From NCBI GenBank assembly GCA_913031595.1, contig CAJWCP010000010.1, positions 1-48,133 of the forward strand: a stretch of DNA of 48,133 bases. Direction: 5' to 3'. Positions 33,180-41,276 of the stretch are shown here, in pieces; within the stretch, counting starts at the first letter, position 1, and every line of letters begins with the position of its first letter. Origin of the DNA: an uncultured Flavobacteriales bacterium. Lineage in GTDB: Bacteria; Bacteroidota; Bacteroidia; Flavobacteriales; BACL11. The notes beneath the pieces were generated by a model. It was given only the letters and a program-made list of their open reading frames with translations, was not told where the DNA came from and did no database searches. Both the position numbers and the translations under genes were made by a program.

Positions 33180-35324
33180 CTACTTTATTATAACCTTCTT
33201 AATAGCCTTCCCTTCATTAGTAAAAATCTCAATAAAATAAATCCCTCGATTTGCAAATTTAATATCAGTATCATATGAAGAATATAAATACCTACCATCA
33301 ACAGAATAAATTTTAATTTCATTGATTGGTGAAAAACTACTAATCTTTACCATTCCAGAAGAAGGATTTGGAAGAACTAAAACATCTTCCACCTTAATGT
33401 TATCAATATTACTAGGAAGAAAACAAGGGGATCCGCCTGGATCCAACTCACACCATCTTCTTTCAAACTCTTGAAGATATATATTTGCTATTTCAGCATC
33501 ATAAATTATTAGTGTGTTTTCATCAGAATTATTCTCCGCATTACTACTCCAATTGTGAGAACCTGTTAAGACTGACGGCCTTGAAGACGGAAAGTTTGCA
33601 TCAGAAATTGCATACTTATGATGAAGCTGATGTGTTACGCCCATATGCGACCTAACATTAACACCTCCATTAATAAGATTGTCATATTCACTTCCAGTTG
33701 TGTTTTGAGACTCAAGTATACCTCTTACATATACATTAAACTCAATATCCTTATTAATAACAGCATCTCCTAAATCATCTCTTGTAAAAGACAAAAGAGC
33801 AAACTCTAATGAATGATCAACTTGTTCAATAAAATTTAAAATCTTACTTGTTGTTTGATCAGAAGGAGAAAAATATAACTCAATTTCTTTTCCATCAACT
33901 ATAAATTTATGAGGGGTATTATCAATCTTATGTGTTCCAAAAACTCCACCCCACATCTCCTCAAACTCTATTGTATATGCTTTTGCTAATGCTTGATCCT
34001 GAATAAAAATAATATTATTATAATCATTTATTAAATTAGCAGGGTTTGACCAATTACAAGAACCTCCCATAACCCAAGAATTGTCAACAGAATTTACATC
34101 TACAATAATAAACTTATTATGCATAATACCAGCTGGACTAGGATCTCTATAGATAATCGGAATATTAGGATTTAAACTCTGCAGCATTATATTCATAGCA
34201 TCATCATCAGCTATGTATCTAACCTGAACCCCCCTATTATACGCATCATTTATAGCATTTGCAATTGTGCCGTCAGACGCATTATATACGCATATATCAA
34301 GAGTAGATTGAGCTCGGCTAATAAACGCAGAAATGGTATCACTAAAATTAGAAGAAATATTTTGCGCATTTACTCCATTTGAAAAAGAAAGGTCGACATA
34401 ATGATTAAAATAAGGTATGATTTTACCAGAAGATAAAGATGCCGTTGAATATATTCCAGTATTTGAGAATGCAGTATCTGAACCATTAACAGAATAACAC
34501 TTAACATAATAAAAGGTAGCTGGCTGCAAGCCAGTTAAGCTAACTGTATGGGCAATGCTATTTCCACCTTGATTAATTACTGTTCCTAATGCAGGAGTGC
34601 TTCCATAATCACAATTAGCTGTAGAAATATTAGACACATCCCAAGTTAAGTCAAAACTTGTAGTCGTAATATTTGTTTGTGTTACAGCAGACGTAAACAC
34701 GATATTCCCGCTTTGGATAATGTCAGCAGAATCTCTCGGTAAAATTTGATATCCATCATTTGCAGGTGTAGAAAATGTATATTGTGAAGAGATTCCTATT
34801 AGTGTAACGGGACCTATGGGAATTAAAGAATTTTCTAAGGGGCTACCTGTTCTTATATAGACCCTTCCTAGCTGACCGTTTGATGTGAAATCATGTGTGC
34901 CAGATGTAAAAGTTGATCCGCCTCCATTAAAAATAACGTTATCTATTTGGACTAATTCTGATTCAGTATTCTCTCCAATCTGATTTGGAGTAACAACCTG
35001 TGGAGATACTGTGTATGAAAAAGGACTTACAGAAAGTGTGTTCACAGGAGTCATTTCCATAAGACCATTATAATCAACTAATACTCCTGTAACTGTAATT
35101 TCCTCTCCTCTTACTACTGCACTAAGTGGAGTAGGATCATACAATGCTAATCCTGCTGTAGAATCTTGGATATAACGAATTGGGCCTAATTCATCTCCAT
35201 TTGTAACTACTCCTGTAACAGTTACTGTTGCTCCAATTCCTTGCAATCTAGCTGTAGCTATATCTTGAGCAAATACAACTAGGCTAGTTAAAATAATTCC
35301 AAATAATATTATTATTTTTTTCAT
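33180..35324 (-). CDS. T9SS-secreted phospholipase D-like protein
   Basis: A 714-residue secreted protein. Signal peptide 1-19 is followed by an OB-like/DUF5689-like region (about 20-205, TVTGVVTNGDELGPIRYIQD) and a fibronectin III-like domain (about 208-297). Two PLD half-sites follow, each with the HxKxxxxD motif: His402-Lys404-Asp409 and His568-Lys570-Asp575, with following GGSCNWSN and TGSHNWSSN loops. Both halves are complete, so catalysis is likely. The family includes nucleases as well as phospholipases; OB-like partners are common in secreted nucleases. A T9SS sorting domain (about 645-714, VLPNPSSG and RGIYFIEIF) ends it. It lies 17 bases after the TonB receptor gene. Confidence 0.85.
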   Translation of the reverse strand: MKKIIILFGIILTSLVVFAQDIATARLQGIGATVTVTGVVTNGDELGPIRYIQDSTAGLALYDPTPLSAVVRGEEITVTGVLVDYNGLMEMTPVNTLSVSPFSYTVSPQVVTPNQIGENTESELVQIDNVIFNGGGSTFTSGTHDFTSNGQLGRVYIRTGSPLENSLIPIGPVTLIGISSQYTFSTPANDGYQILPRDSADIIQSGNIVFTSAVTQTNITTTSFDLTWDVSNISTANCDYGSTPALGTVINQGGNSIAHTVSLTGLQPATFYYVKCYSVNGSDTAFSNTGIYSTASLSSGKIIPYFNHYVDLSFSNGVNAQNISSNFSDTISAFISRAQSTLDICVYNASDGTIANAINDAYNRGVQVRYIADDDAMNIMLQSLNPNIPIIYRDPSPAGIMHNKFIIVDVNSVDNSWVMGGSCNWSNPANLINDYNNIIFIQDQALAKAYTIEFEEMWGGVFGTHKIDNTPHKFIVDGKEIELYFSPSDQTTSKILNFIEQVDHSLEFALLSFTRDDLGDAVINKDIEFNVYVRGILESQNTTGSEYDNLINGGVNVRSHMGVTHQLHHKYAISDANFPSSRPSVLTGSHNWSSNAENNSDENTLIIYDAEIANIYLQEFERRWCELDPGGSPCFLPSNIDNIKVEDVLVLPNPSSGMVKISSFSPINEIKIYSVDGRYLYSSYDTDIKFANRGIYFIEIFTNEGKAIKKVIIK

Positions 35325-35341
35325 AATTCTTTTCTATTTTT

Positions 35342-38104
35342 TTAAAAACTAAACCTTGCAGATAAATTTATTCTTCTTCCTAATCCAAAAAATACACTTG
35401 CAGACTTTGCGTCAAAATCACTGTAATCTGCATTAAAACCATCATTGTTTTTTGCATCTGATATATACACTTTGTTAAACAAATTAAGCACGCTTAATTT
35501 AAAATCTAATTTATGCTTTTGCGATAATTTAAATTTATAGCCGGCATGCAAATCTATCAAATAATATGCAGGAATCATCCAACTTTCTCTACTAGCATTG
35601 TCTCCACTCAAAGTTCCTGCATCAAAATCAGAATAATAGCGATCAAAATATGTGCCTCTGAATTTTAAATATGAATTATTTGTAGGCTCATACCTAATAC
35701 TTATACCATACTGAGTCTGAGCGGCATCTCCCACATGAACCCCATTAGCATCATATTCTAAAGTGTCTAATTCTGTATGCCCTAAATCTAAAGAAGGAGG
35801 TTCGTTTAGACTGTTTAAAATAATTGCCTTTCCTCCTGAAGTCCATATCCAGTCACCTAAAGACAGTAGTCCTTCTATATTTAGATTTTGTGTTAACTTA
35901 AAAGAAAGATCCATTTCAACCCCTTTGTGAAGGGCATTCATTGGTACAACATCCGTATAATAAATTCCACTAATATTATCGGCCACAGTAACTGGCTTAT
36001 TTTCCCATATAGTATAATACCCATTTAGATTAGCTGAAAATATAGATGAACGATAAGAATAACCTCCCTCTACAGCTTTCACAATCTCATTGCGAATATA
36101 TTCTTGCAACGTATTATTATAAGTGTAAATATTGTTGAACCTTGGAGCTTTTGAAATATAGCCTGAATTAAAAAATAAATTGTTATTCTCATTTAAATTA
36201 ACATTAGCTCCCGTCTTCACCGTATAACCTTTTATCCATTTCCAAGGGGTTGAGGCGTATTCTGCTTCTTCTGAGTTAATAGTATATTTATTGCCGTTAA
36301 TTTCTAGCGTATCTGGAATATATGTTAGTGAGTCTATACCTAAAGCTTCTCGTATAGTAGTGTCAGATAATACTAAGTCCTTCTTTTTAAAATAATCTAT
36401 TCGTTTATGTCCAGAGTTAGAACCAGAGATGTTAATAAAAGCACTAAATATCTCGTCACTATACTCAGCTTGAGAAAAAACCCCTCCCCACTTTACAAGC
36501 CCATCATTATGGTACCGAATAATATCTCCTTCTTTTTTAACTGGCCCAGTAGTTTGATTATTAAAAATTGTATAGTCTGCTCCAAGCATATCATATGCCT
36601 GAGCATAATGTTCTCCTTTATAATAGCGCAAGTCTAATCCTCCCGAAAAAGAAAACGCATCAGTTGCCTGATAGTTTAAGGTGGAAAGAGCTCCATACCA
36701 ATAATGATTATTTACCTTCGATAATAAATAACTAGCTGTCTTGTATTCGGTGTCTGAAAAATCAGTATCTATAATGGGGCCAAATGGACCAGAACCAACA
36801 TTTGCGTCATAAGCTTGTTGCAAAGACATTTGGCCATTTTCTGTTTCTCCTATTCCATTTGCCTGTGTTCCTCCTCCATTACCAATAGAGGCATAAAAAA
36901 TATTTGAAATATATAGCTTATCATTAACTTTCCAGAAATCTCTTAAAGAAATTTGCGGTTTATGATAGTAATTCTTTCTTGTATTTAATATCTCTTTATT
37001 ATGAATTGTATCTCCATTATCATCTAATATCCATCTGTCTAAATTTCCCCAATATCTATTATAGGTGATCCCTTTATTTATAACGTCTCTAGTTGAAAAG
37101 TTAGATGTATCTCCAAGACTTCGTGCAAATGTAGTATCATAGGTAGCAATATCACTTTTATAAGCTCTCTGCCCATGATGTTGTGGCGCTCCCATAACCG
37201 AAAGACTCAAAATATGTGATCCTAATTCTTTTTGAATTTTTGCATAATAAAACGCTCCTTCCGTCCATGTTTGCTCAACAAATCCATTACCTTTTTTATA
37301 AGACCCTGCAAAGGTATAGCCCCATCCATTATCTAATTTTCCAGAATTATAGCCTACTGATGTGCGTAATTTACCATAAGATCCTACTTCTTGCTTAATT
37401 ATTCCTCCAGATTTATTACCAGTGCCTTTTGTCAGTATATTCATTGTTCCCCCTACTGAAGGAATAGCAATCTTTGAAGCGCCTAATCCTCTTTGAACCT
37501 GAATATTAGAAGTAACCGCATCAAGGCCAAACCAATTTGACCAGTATACCCATCCATTCTCCATGTCATTAACAGGGATCCCATCAATCATAACTGCAAC
37601 ATTTCTTTGATTAAATCCACGAATAGTAATTCTTGCATCTCCATCTCCGCCTCCTGTTTGCGTTGCATACACTCCAGGAGTAGAATTAAGCACCATTGGA
37701 ATATCTTGCGAAGCTAATTCTTCATTTAATTTCTGTACATTAATAGTAGAAAAGGCAATAGGAGTTTTCCTGTCTTGTGCAACATCTGCGACTACCTGAA
37801 CTTCATTTAAAAGTATAGTTTTAAGTTTAAAATCCAAATTTTGTAAGGTTCCCTTAATCACAACCAATTTATTCAATGGTTTATAACCTACATATGAAAC
37901 TTGAAAACTTCTTTCTCCTTCTGGGATAGAAATAGAATAGCTTCCGTCTAAATCAGTTACTGTTCCTTGACCTTTTCCATAAATTATTGTTGCTCCTATT
38001 AAGCCCTCTCCTGTATTATAATCAACTACTTTCCCTTTAAGTGTCGTTTGAGAAAAGGCATTAAGGCTAAAAAGAATCAAAATTAAGATACCAATATTCT
38101 TCAT
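35342..38104 (-). CDS. TonB-dependent receptor in surface locus
   Basis: A 920-residue outer-membrane transporter. It has a signal peptide (1-18, ending AFSQ) and a carboxypeptidase-D-like domain (about 19-100, TTLKGKVVDYNTGEGLIGATI). The plug domain (about 105-230) contains GGGDGDARITIRGFNQRNVAVMIDG, shown here in part, then MENGWVYWSNWFGLD and GGTMNILTKGT. A barrel ends in LSARFSF with the usual terminal Phe. No SusD-like gene is adjacent. Instead it sits between a lamin-tail protein and a PLD-like protein, both T9SS-secreted, which suggests uptake of something those proteins bind or cut. Substrate is unknown. Confidence 0.9.
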   Translation of the reverse strand: MKNIGILILILFSLNAFSQTTLKGKVVDYNTGEGLIGATIIYGKGQGTVTDLDGSYSISIPEGERSFQVSYVGYKPLNKLVVIKGTLQNLDFKLKTILLNEVQVVADVAQDRKTPIAFSTINVQKLNEELASQDIPMVLNSTPGVYATQTGGGDGDARITIRGFNQRNVAVMIDGIPVNDMENGWVYWSNWFGLDAVTSNIQVQRGLGASKIAIPSVGGTMNILTKGTGNKSGGIIKQEVGSYGKLRTSVGYNSGKLDNGWGYTFAGSYKKGNGFVEQTWTEGAFYYAKIQKELGSHILSLSVMGAPQHHGQRAYKSDIATYDTTFARSLGDTSNFSTRDVINKGITYNRYWGNLDRWILDDNGDTIHNKEILNTRKNYYHKPQISLRDFWKVNDKLYISNIFYASIGNGGGTQANGIGETENGQMSLQQAYDANVGSGPFGPIIDTDFSDTEYKTASYLLSKVNNHYWYGALSTLNYQATDAFSFSGGLDLRYYKGEHYAQAYDMLGADYTIFNNQTTGPVKKEGDIIRYHNDGLVKWGGVFSQAEYSDEIFSAFINISGSNSGHKRIDYFKKKDLVLSDTTIREALGIDSLTYIPDTLEINGNKYTINSEEAEYASTPWKWIKGYTVKTGANVNLNENNNLFFNSGYISKAPRFNNIYTYNNTLQEYIRNEIVKAVEGGYSYRSSIFSANLNGYYTIWENKPVTVADNISGIYYTDVVPMNALHKGVEMDLSFKLTQNLNIEGLLSLGDWIWTSGGKAIILNSLNEPPSLDLGHTELDTLEYDANGVHVGDAAQTQYGISIRYEPTNNSYLKFRGTYFDRYYSDFDAGTLSGDNASRESWMIPAYYLIDLHAGYKFKLSQKHKLDFKLSVLNLFNKVYISDAKNNDGFNADYSDFDAKSASVFFGLGRRINLSARFSF

Positions 38105-38165
38105 TTATATATATAAGAAGTGAGAAATATAATATAACTACTAATCCTCCAATGATTAGAATAGA

Positions 38166-39068
38166 TTACTCTATAATAAGTTTATTGTCAGCTTTTCTTC
38201 CATCAACAAATCTAATACTAATCAAATAAGCTCCTTTTGCTAGGTTATTAGTATTAATAGTATGTTTATTAGAAGTTAAAATCATTTCTCCTAAAAGATT
38301 AGTAATTTGAATCTCGGTAATCTTTTGAGTTGATTCTACAGAAACTATGCTTCCAACAATAGCTGGATTAGGATACACTACATAAGAGTCTTTTGTCTCT
38401 TCTATATTAGCTGCTCCTGTGCAAGAGCAGCTATGGCTTCCTAAATTATTCCAAGTAGAAACGGGCAAAGAATCCCACTCTAAACTTGGATTAAATAAAT
38501 CTAAGCCATTATTATCTCCATGCAACACATTACTCTTACGAATTAAAGTATGATTTGCTGTCCACCAAGTCCCCATAGTAAATCCAGAAGCGGCATCATC
38601 CGTCCATGCGCCTGAAGCAGGATCTTCCCCAACCCTACCAATAACATCTAAAATATTTCCATCTTTGATTAAAACCATTGCATCATTGCCGTTCATATGC
38701 ATAGGAGTTGGATATGAACCATTTGGCTCAGCCATATCTCCCATATTATAAAGAGCCATGTCACAATATCCAAATTGTCCTGCTGTGTCTGTATCTCCAT
38801 TTGTTAAGACAAATACATCTCCTGAGGCTAGAATTCCTGATAAACTTGTAATTCCTCCTGCAGAACTGTTTGTTGCTCCATTAGAATACCTCTCCACTTG
38901 ATAACCGCTTAAATCTATTGGAAAGGCTGTTGGATTATAAATCTCAATTGCCTTATTCTGACCATATCCTTCTACATACTCAGAGAAAAATAATTCTGAA
39001 CAATCAACAATCTGCGCATGTAAACTAATTGTAAGAAATAAACTAATTAGTAATATAATTCTATTCAT
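38166..39068 (-). CDS. T9SS-secreted lamin-tail domain protein
   Basis: A 300-residue secreted protein. Signal peptide 1-18 leads into a lamin-tail (LTD) domain covering about 20-215: ELFFSEYVEGYGQNKAIEIYN at 25-45, then IDLSGYQVERYSNG and ASGDVFVLTNGD. LTD domains in bacteria often accompany secreted nucleases such as ExeM-type enzymes and are thought to be binding modules. No catalytic domain is present here. A short T9SS sorting domain (about 230-300, YVVYPNPAIVGSIVSVES) follows. It is first in the LTD-TonB receptor-PLD set, 61 bases ahead of the receptor gene. Confidence 0.82.
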   Translation of the reverse strand: MNRIILLISLFLTISLHAQIVDCSELFFSEYVEGYGQNKAIEIYNPTAFPIDLSGYQVERYSNGATNSSAGGITSLSGILASGDVFVLTNGDTDTAGQFGYCDMALYNMGDMAEPNGSYPTPMHMNGNDAMVLIKDGNILDVIGRVGEDPASGAWTDDAASGFTMGTWWTANHTLIRKSNVLHGDNNGLDLFNPSLEWDSLPVSTWNNLGSHSCSCTGAANIEETKDSYVVYPNPAIVGSIVSVESTQKITEIQITNLLGEMILTSNKHTINTNNLAKGAYLISIRFVDGRKADNKLIIE

Positions 39069-39203: not shown

Positions 39204-39938
39204 ATGTCAGATGCTTTAATTATCATACCAACCTACAATGAAAAAGAAAATATTGAACGTATTTTACGCACAATATTCTCATTAGAGAAAATGTTTCATG
39301 TTTTAGTTGTTGACGATGGCTCTCCAGATGGTACCGCAGAAATTGTTAAAAATTTACAAAAAGAGATTACATGGGGAGCCTTACATCTTGAAGAAAGAAC
39401 AGGAAAATTAGGTCTTGGAACTGCTTATATTCATGGATTTAAATGGGCTTTAAAAAAAGAGTACGAATATATCTTTGAAATGGATGCAGATTTTTCTCAT
39501 GACCCAAACGATTTAATTAGATTATATAATGCAAATGCAGAAAATGGAGGGGAATTAGCTGTTGGCTCTCGTTATGTGAGCGGTGTGAATATTATAAACT
39601 GGCCTATGAGTCGACTATTAATGTCCTTCTTCGCTTCTAAATATGTTAAACTAATTACTGGTATGCCGGTACATGATTCTACTGCTGGCTTCAAATGTTA
39701 TAAAAGAAAAGTTCTTGAAACTATTAATCTTAATGAAATCCAATTTGTAGGCTATGCTTTTCAAATTGAAATGAAATTTAAATCTTGGAAGTATGGATTT
39801 AAAATCATTGAAGTGCCTGTAGTTTTTACTGATCGTACAGATGGGACGTCCAAAATGAGTGGGGGGATATTCTTGGAAGCAGTATTTGGAGTAATCCAAA
39901 TGAAAATAAAAAGTCTTTTTAGAAGTTGGAAAAAATAA
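39204..39938 (+). CDS. Polyprenyl-phosphate mannosyltransferase-like GT2
   Basis: Membrane-associated glycosyltransferase of the dolichyl-phosphate mannose synthase (DPM1-like) group; it moves a sugar from a nucleotide donor onto a polyprenyl phosphate. The 244 residues include IIIPTYNEKENI (6-17), the DDGSPDGT motif (37-44) and MDADFSHDP (93-101) with the metal-binding DAD. The YAFQIEMKFKSWKYGFKIIEVPVVF segment (given in part) is typical of DPM1. There is no C-terminal GtrA-type membrane part, so this is the short soluble form. It is 6 bases ahead of the dihydroorotase gene. Confidence 0.9.
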   Translation: MSDALIIIPTYNEKENIERILRTIFSLEKMFHVLVVDDGSPDGTAEIVKNLQKEITWGALHLEERTGKLGLGTAYIHGFKWALKKEYEYIFEMDADFSHDPNDLIRLYNANAENGGELAVGSRYVSGVNIINWPMSRLLMSFFASKYVKLITGMPVHDSTAGFKCYKRKVLETINLNEIQFVGYAFQIEMKFKSWKYGFKIIEVPVVFTDRTDGTSKMSGGIFLEAVFGVIQMKIKSLFRSWKK

Positions 39939-39944
39939 AATTCT

Positions 39945-41276
39945 ATGCGAATCCTTATTAAAAATTCAACTATTATAAATGAAGGTAAAATTTATAAAAG
40001 CGATATTTTAATAGAAGATAAATTTATAAAAAGAATAGCTCCAAATATTGATGTAAAATGTGATAAATTAATTGACGCCAAAGGATTACACTTAATTCCA
40101 GGTGTCATTGATGATCAGGTTCATTTTAGAGAGCCAGGACTGACTCATAAAGCAACTATTTATTCGGAAAGTAAGGCTGCAGTTGCAGGGGGGATCACTT
40201 CATTCATGGAAATGCCCAATACAAAACCACAAGCATTAACGCAGGAATTGTTAGAAAATAAATTCCAAATTGCTGAAAAAGAGTCCTTAGCAAATTTTAC
40301 TTTTTTTATGGGAGTGTCAAATGACAATTTGGAAGAAGTTCTTAAAACAGATCCAAAAAAAGTTGGAGCAATAAAAATATTCATGGGCTCTTCAACAGGA
40401 AATATGTTAGTTGATGATAAAAAAGTGTTAGAAGAAGTATTTAAAAAATCTCCTATGCTGATAGCTGTTCATTGTGAAGATGAAAATATTATTCAAAAGA
40501 ATATTAAAAAAGCAAAGGAAAAATATGGAGATAATATCCCAATATCAGAACATCCAAATATTAGAAGTGATGATGCATGCTATCAATCTAGTTCTTTCGC
40601 AATAAATCTTGCTAAGAAACATAACACACGTTTACATGTCTTTCACCTTTCATCTAAAAAAGAAATGGAACTGTTTGATAATACAATTCCGCTTTCTAAG
40701 AAACGAATTACAAGTGAAGTATGTATACATCATCTTTGGTTTAACGATGAGTTCTATAAAGAAAAAGGTACACTTATAAAATGGAATCCTTCTATAAAAA
40801 AAGAAGAAGATAGAAAGGCTCTTTTTCAAGCTTTACTTAATGACAAGCTAGATGTTATTGCAACAGATCATGCTCCACACACATTAGAAGAAAAATCCAA
40901 CACATATCTTAAAGCCCCTTCCGGAGGTCCATTAGTGCAACATGCACTTCCTGTAATGATTCAATTTTATAAAAAAGGGGAGATATCACTAGAGAAAATA
41001 GTGGAAAAAATGTGCCACAATCCTGCCATCTGTTTTAGAATAAAAAATAGAGGCTTTATTCGTGAAGGATTTTTTGCAGATTTAGTTTTAATAGATTTAA
41101 ACTCTTCTTGGGAGGTGAAAAAAGAAAATCTGCTATACAAATGTAACTGGTCTCCGTTTGAAGGAGAAACCTTTAATGCAAAAATCACGCATACGTTTGT
41201 AAATGGACATATCGCTTATAATAATGGCATTTTTAATGAGGAAAAAAGGGGAGTACGTCTTTCTTTTTATAAATAA
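39945..41276 (+). CDS. pyrC: Dihydroorotase (class I)
   Basis: Amidohydrolase that interconverts carbamoyl-aspartate and dihydroorotate in pyrimidine synthesis. The 443 residues show the start of the barrel at LIPGVIDDQVHFREPG. The first metal-binding His of the usual DxHxH motif is Gln here (Q58), with His60 kept. Later sites are intact: the Lys of GAIKIFMGSSTG (candidate carboxylated Lys), AVHCEDEN, LHVFHLSS and VIATDHAPHT with the catalytic Asp. I recall the same DDQVH form from other Bacteroidota, so it may be a lineage trait. The end is followed by a hairpin at 41279-41300. Confidence 0.9.
   Translation: MRILIKNSTIINEGKIYKSDILIEDKFIKRIAPNIDVKCDKLIDAKGLHLIPGVIDDQVHFREPGLTHKATIYSESKAAVAGGITSFMEMPNTKPQALTQELLENKFQIAEKESLANFTFFMGVSNDNLEEVLKTDPKKVGAIKIFMGSSTGNMLVDDKKVLEEVFKKSPMLIAVHCEDENIIQKNIKKAKEKYGDNIPISEHPNIRSDDACYQSSSFAINLAKKHNTRLHVFHLSSKKEMELFDNTIPLSKKRITSEVCIHHLWFNDEFYKEKGTLIKWNPSIKKEEDRKALFQALLNDKLDVIATDHAPHTLEEKSNTYLKAPSGGPLVQHALPVMIQFYKKGEISLEKIVEKMCHNPAICFRIKNRGFIREGFFADLVLIDLNSSWEVKKENLLYKCNWSPFEGETFNAKITHTFVNGHIAYNNGIFNEEKRGVRLSFYK

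Follow-up and report, generated by a model that had tools for sequence, protein, structure and literature searches.

The window analysed here, the whole 48,133-nucleotide stretch of contig CAJWCP010000010.1 from an uncultured Flavobacteriales bacterium, a marine organism, carries three adjoining genes, for a lamin tail domain (LTD) protein, a TonB-dependent receptor and an enzyme of the phospholipase D (PLD) fold, which together are probably a cell-surface locus for the acquisition of nucleic acid. The recurrence of this trio throughout the phylum, with either of two unrelated nucleases, is strong evidence for a role in the capture, cutting and import of environmental nucleic acid. A first-pass annotation of the DNA had proposed such a role, for nucleic acid or some other phosphodiester and with phospholipid as the chief rival, and the proposal is now supported by the retention of the trio in relatives and by the replacement of the PLD protein, in the same slot, by a protein with an Endonuclease_1 domain (PF04231), an EndA/Vvn-type nuclease family unrelated to PLD.

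The three open reading frames lie in a row on the minus strand (33180-39068), exactly where the first-pass annotation had placed them, with intergenic gaps of 61 bp between the LTD and receptor genes and 17 bp between the receptor and PLD genes, and a divergent gene lies 135 bp upstream; judged from the sequence, the arrangement is an apparent operon. A scan for promoters and terminators gave a site count not above that of shuffled sequences. Glycosyltransferase and dihydroorotase genes stand beside the trio (39204-41276), a possible link to pyrimidines. The genome, 77% complete at 1.3 Mb, holds a single copy of the PLD protein and the type IX secretion system (T9SS) motor gene GldL, and no Endonuclease_1 was found in it at that completeness. 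Both outer proteins of the trio had been described as T9SS-secreted, and both carry a Por_Secre_tail over the Pfam cut-off, as expected of T9SS cargo.

The LTD protein (300 aa; 38166..39068, minus strand) consists of a signal peptide, a lamin tail domain at residues 24-145 (Pfam LTD, 5e-15) and a T9SS sorting tail at residues 231-299 (Por_Secre_tail, 1e-9). Its N-terminal part resembles the start of ExeM (NCBIfam, 9e-22), matching only ExeM residues 1-192, and with 76.9 bits against an NCBIfam cut-off of 1300 the protein falls outside the ExeM/NucH family; comparison with solved structures gave no useful match. Elsewhere in the same genome (locus L202, contig C29, 3-3214) lies the gene of a further large LTD protein, of 1070 aa and with two LTD and two cupredoxin domains. 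It is oriented divergently from genes for another TonB receptor and a probable lipoprotein of 338 aa, and this is possibly a metal-related surface locus.

The receptor (920 aa; 35342..38104, minus strand) has a CarboxypepD_reg domain at residues 22-104 (Pfam CarbopepD_reg_2, 2e-17) and a plug at residues 112-219 (Plug, 1e-13), followed by a beta barrel. Its structure model (pLDDT 84.4) shows a generic TonB receptor fold matching FhuA, FecA and PqqU, so the original assignment stands, and no SusD gene adjoins it in the window, as had also been remarked. The locus is thus not a SusC/SusD-type polysaccharide utilisation locus (PUL); from locus to locus it is LTD and nuclease genes that flank the receptor. 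As a clue to the ligand the fold search was uninformative, the fold being generic. In two genomes the receptor gene is broken by internal stops while its neighbours are kept (G042:C4:325560-328419 and G057:C16:31655-34426, the latter locus L100), which is either recent decay or assembly error.

The third protein (714 aa; 33180..35324, minus strand) is a candidate secreted PLD-fold nuclease. It comprises a DUF5689 module at residues 29-202 (34719..35240; Pfam, 2e-10), a PLD part (PLDc_2, 3e-39, in two stretches) and a T9SS C-terminal sorting tail at residues 651-713 (33186..33374; Pfam 7e-8, NCBIfam TIGR04183), all on the minus strand. The two complete HxKxxxxD sites of the first-pass annotation, HNKFIIVD at residues 402-409 (34098..34121, minus strand) and HHKYAISD at residues 568-575 (33600..33623, minus strand), are intact and kept in 56/56 homologues, and with the PLD fold of the model they place the protein in the PLD (HKD) superfamily. 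Two further regions fared less simply: the stretch called OB-like is indeed a module, namely DUF5689, with the OB fold itself suggested only by the strand pattern of the model, and the Fn3-like region was seen, yet its matches fall under the curated cut-off (fn3 0.005, Pur_ac_phosph_N 0.0005). Structure prediction (pLDDT 87.6, pTM 0.77) and the comparison that had been suggested with Nuc and with phospholipases gave as best fold matches the PLD3/PLD4 exonucleases, some of them solved with ssDNA, followed by phospholipase D (third-best), vaccinia F13, Zucchini, Nuc and NucT; phosphatidylserine synthases were also among the matches. The sequence profile matches PLD6/Zucchini, Nuc and NucT, and with neighbours by sequence and modelled fold that are mostly nucleases, the protein is better regarded as a candidate nuclease than as a lipase. 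The computed pI values of the surface parts are acidic (DUF5689 4.1, PLD part 4.5, LTD protein 4.4), values that give no hint of strong DNA binding through bulk charge. A DUF5689-like stretch with 66% identity to that of the window also occurs in genome G049 (locus L055, 2096-7756), within a 1886-aa ORF that has BD-FAE, Omp28 and BNR-like domains and no PLD; this ORF is a recombined copy or a chimaeric assembly.

That the three genes should be neighbours in relatives had been set as a test of the original reading, and they are, with their order kept. The family to which the window belongs is covered by 52 genomes; in 31 of them the receptor gene adjoins the PLD gene on one contig, and in those 31/52 the LTD gene lies on the receptor's other side wherever the contig extends; with wider sampling, the order LTD-receptor-enzyme was found in five further families of the order and two further families of the class. 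The named scan gave 80 loci, from Flavobacteriales, Crocinitomicaceae, Bacteroidales, Saprospiraceae and others, and in the 54 with complete flanks the LTD gene was directly upstream in 51, a nuclease gene directly downstream in 50 and both in 49, figures which describe this receptor clade rather than TonB receptors at large, because the loci were picked by receptor similarity. The conserved order spans Flavobacteriales, Bacteroidales and Saprospiraceae. Related receptors outside the clade had an LTD or nuclease neighbour within two genes in 0/31 cases, and the comparison of 49/54 with 0/31 (Fisher p 4e-19) is indicative only, since the loci are phylogenetically linked. Synteny in dozens of other genomes rules out a chance arrangement. 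The outer flank of glycosyltransferase and dihydroorotase genes is common to 19 of the 80 loci and reaches from Flavobacteriales to Bacteroidales, pointing to a position that is old and has been inherited vertically. One locus (L188) lies in a complete genome titled Glaciecola amylolytica, of the Pseudomonadota (CP034120.1); with the order LTD-receptor-Endonuclease_1-5'-nucleotidase and proteins of T9SS type it resembles the loci of Crocinitomicaceae, and the record may be misnamed.

The enzyme slot of the named loci is occupied by PLD in 25 cases and by Endonuclease_1 in 25. The exchange reaches into the window's own family, where in six genomes a T9SS protein of 713-714 aa with an Endonuclease_1 domain (e.g. 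7e-27) replaces the PLD protein. On the receptor tree, which was quickly built and has a number of long branches, at least five changes between PLD and Endonuclease_1 are needed, and the window's receptor is placed among receptors partnered with Endonuclease_1. The Endonuclease_1 proteins of the family group with those of the trio loci L186, L188, L195 and L200 and not with the versions of families f7 and f15, as expected for replacement by transfer. At many loci the DUF5689 module is retained and the catalytic domain alone differs. Two Bacteroidales loci, one with PLD and Endonuclease_1 together (L149, 9131-10450) and one with three consecutive Endonuclease_1 proteins (L137, 9680-16612), look as if both enzyme types could coexist before the loss of one. 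EEP was also considered as an enzyme type that might regularly fill this position; it occurs there in isolated cases only (L063, L137, L158).

A further enzyme is linked to the trio in 15 loci, mostly of the Crocinitomicaceae type, in which a split 5'-nucleotidase comes next after the nuclease gene; it is made up of a PF02872 gene and a calcineurin-like metallophosphatase gene, a linkage that belongs to essentially one lineage. In the window's genome this pair of genes, UshA-like, is present on another contig, so that what lies inside the locus in other lineages is encoded elsewhere here.

These observations fit a scheme in which the LTD and DUF5689-PLD proteins would be exported via the type IX system and remain at the cell surface, a location suggested by their sorting tails and the T9SS gene. 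The two HKD motifs should form one nuclease site, with which the PLD protein would cut DNA and/or RNA caught at the surface; DUF5689, probably helped by the LTD protein, may hold the polymer or dock the enzyme at the receptor. The receptor would then move the pieces into the periplasm; it is the constant genetic coupling that points to import of oligonucleotides, the nearest folds of the receptor being siderophore, PQQ and copper receptors. In the periplasm the UshA-like split 5'-nucleotidase could free nucleoside and phosphate. The role is most likely nutritional, supplying phosphorus, nitrogen, carbon or bases, rather than one in genetic transformation; the phosphorus source originally envisaged is one of several possible purposes, and nitrogen, carbon and base salvage fit equally.

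Natural transformation is the alternative that survives best, and we regard it as unlikely. It would make the receptor the outer-membrane DNA channel of pilus-less Bacteroidota, with the nuclease processing the entering DNA in the manner of pneumococcal EndA. It draws on the Riemerella anatipestifer operon RA0C_RS04915-RS04920, which encodes a CarboxypepD_reg outer-membrane protein and a DUF5689/DUF5017 protein, neighbours that are essential for natural transformation (PMC8459023, the single paper found in a literature search for DUF5689, from whose scope most subscription journals were absent). Comparable pairs occur in family f6 (L208-L219), where in an almost universal locus a DUF5689 lipoprotein (roughly 280-720 aa) comes after a TonB-type receptor, mostly with a divergent EEP nuclease gene alongside; no LTD gene was found at these loci. 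In one f6 genus the lipoprotein matches a family named after the R. anatipestifer gene M949_1556, and from layout and domains we infer that f6 genomes hold orthologs of the genes described in PMC8459023; the f6 locus is a candidate for a general DNA-uptake locus of that family. A reference cited in PMC12566107 links M949_1556 to antigenicity and pathogenicity, so the f6 pair may have further effects. The DUF5689 of the trio is homologous to that of the f6 pair (hhalign 94%, E 9e-8), but is fused to PLD, and the trio receptor is not an ortholog of the f6 pair's receptor, sharing 21% identity with it but 35% with a different receptor encoded in that genome; the trio is therefore not a Riemerella-type pair. 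ComEC is the inner-membrane channel of natural transformation. It does not accompany the trio throughout the window's family, being found in only 6/15 high-quality genomes, and it was not found in the 77% complete genome of the window itself, so the trio cannot generally serve transformation in the family. The other 9/15 have the receptor and LTD genes without ComEC, which makes nutrition the better reading, and the 5'-nucleotidase in the operon at 15 loci likewise points to feeding. Transformation was accordingly lowered from its place as a leading idea.

We assign a similarly small chance to an unrelated ligand, whereby the nuclease would act on biofilm or extracellular-trap DNA or thin slime while the receptor imports a siderophore or vitamin, or whereby the genes share only T9SS export and regulation. 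The generic receptor fold, closest to siderophore, PQQ and copper receptors, would allow this, but across orders a single receptor clade is accompanied by two nuclease families of independent origin and the related receptors outside it by none, a pattern difficult to account for if receptor and nuclease did not act on a common substrate path. Phospholipid scavenging, in which the PLD protein would hydrolyse lipid head groups for uptake of the products by the receptor, can claim the PLD superfamily with its phospholipase D and phosphatidylserine synthase fold matches, but it was dropped as a leading idea upon the repeated appearance of Endonuclease_1, for which no lipid activity is known, in the same slot, because nucleic acid is what the two enzymes share, and with the similarity in sequence to PLD6, Nuc and NucT and the 5'-nucleotidase linkage also against it, we consider it very improbable.

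Environmental DNA and RNA are large pools of phosphorus, nitrogen and carbon. Bacteroidota are reported to be important degraders of DNA (PMC8289736), and passage of the products across their outer membrane was not described in the papers found; a nucleic-acid acquisition locus of the kind proposed here would provide a candidate importer, named with its enzyme and partner, that occurs in ocean-surface Flavobacteriales and as far afield as Bacteroidales. The locus also hints that nucleic acid can pass through receptors of the TonB type, a point relevant to how DNA enters pilus-less transformable Bacteroidota; TonB-driven DNA import is plausible given that the receptor-like/DUF5689 pair of Riemerella is essential for transformation. 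A broader generalization, which we put at somewhat below an even chance, is that a TonB receptor clade for active import of DNA or RNA fragments, with swappable surface nuclease and DUF5689 docking, is a standard means of foraging for nucleic acid in Bacteroidota and also that pilus-less transformation uptake is built on the same plan of TonB-type channel and DUF5689 binder.

Our literature search found no paper joining an LTD protein, a TonB receptor and a nuclease, which is weak evidence of novelty because most subscription journals were outside its scope; the trio, for which no published description was found, resembles PUL-like nutrient loci. Like PULs and the 'Pus' phosphate-utilisation loci of Flavobacterium, which comprise phosphatases and phosphodiesterases induced by phosphate depletion (PMC8115612), it co-encodes a surface enzyme and a TonB-dependent transporter, but it lacks SusD, has a candidate nuclease as its enzyme and carries an LTD protein and DUF5689 instead. 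The Flavobacterium johnsoniae proteins EndA1/EndA2 (fn3, LTD, Endonuclease_1) are also up under phosphate depletion, and are listed as orphans with no transporter (PMC8115612). The DNA-degradation loci of Candidatus Izemoplasmatales, which group secreted nucleases, phosphohydrolases and an LTD protein bearing a nuclease domain for feeding on DNA, join LTD to nucleases as the trio does (PMC8289736), although they use ABC transporters in cells that have no outer membrane, in contrast to T9SS export and a TonB receptor. The Riemerella operon, like the trio, places a DUF5689 protein after a CarboxypepD_reg outer-membrane protein, but its DUF5689 protein has neither the nuclease domain nor the T9SS tail of ours. 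ExeM/NucH-type nucleases likewise pair LTD with a secreted nuclease, but combine LTD, OB and EEP in one protein, whereas the LTD and candidate enzyme of the trio are separate. Finally, the PLD protein has the HKD motifs of H. pylori NucT and Salmonella Nuc, where they serve catalysis on DNA or RNA, but places two of them in one chain behind DUF5689, adds a T9SS tail and is tied to a TonB receptor. NucT, one of its nearest solved relatives, reportedly helps in the salvage of purines from external DNA.
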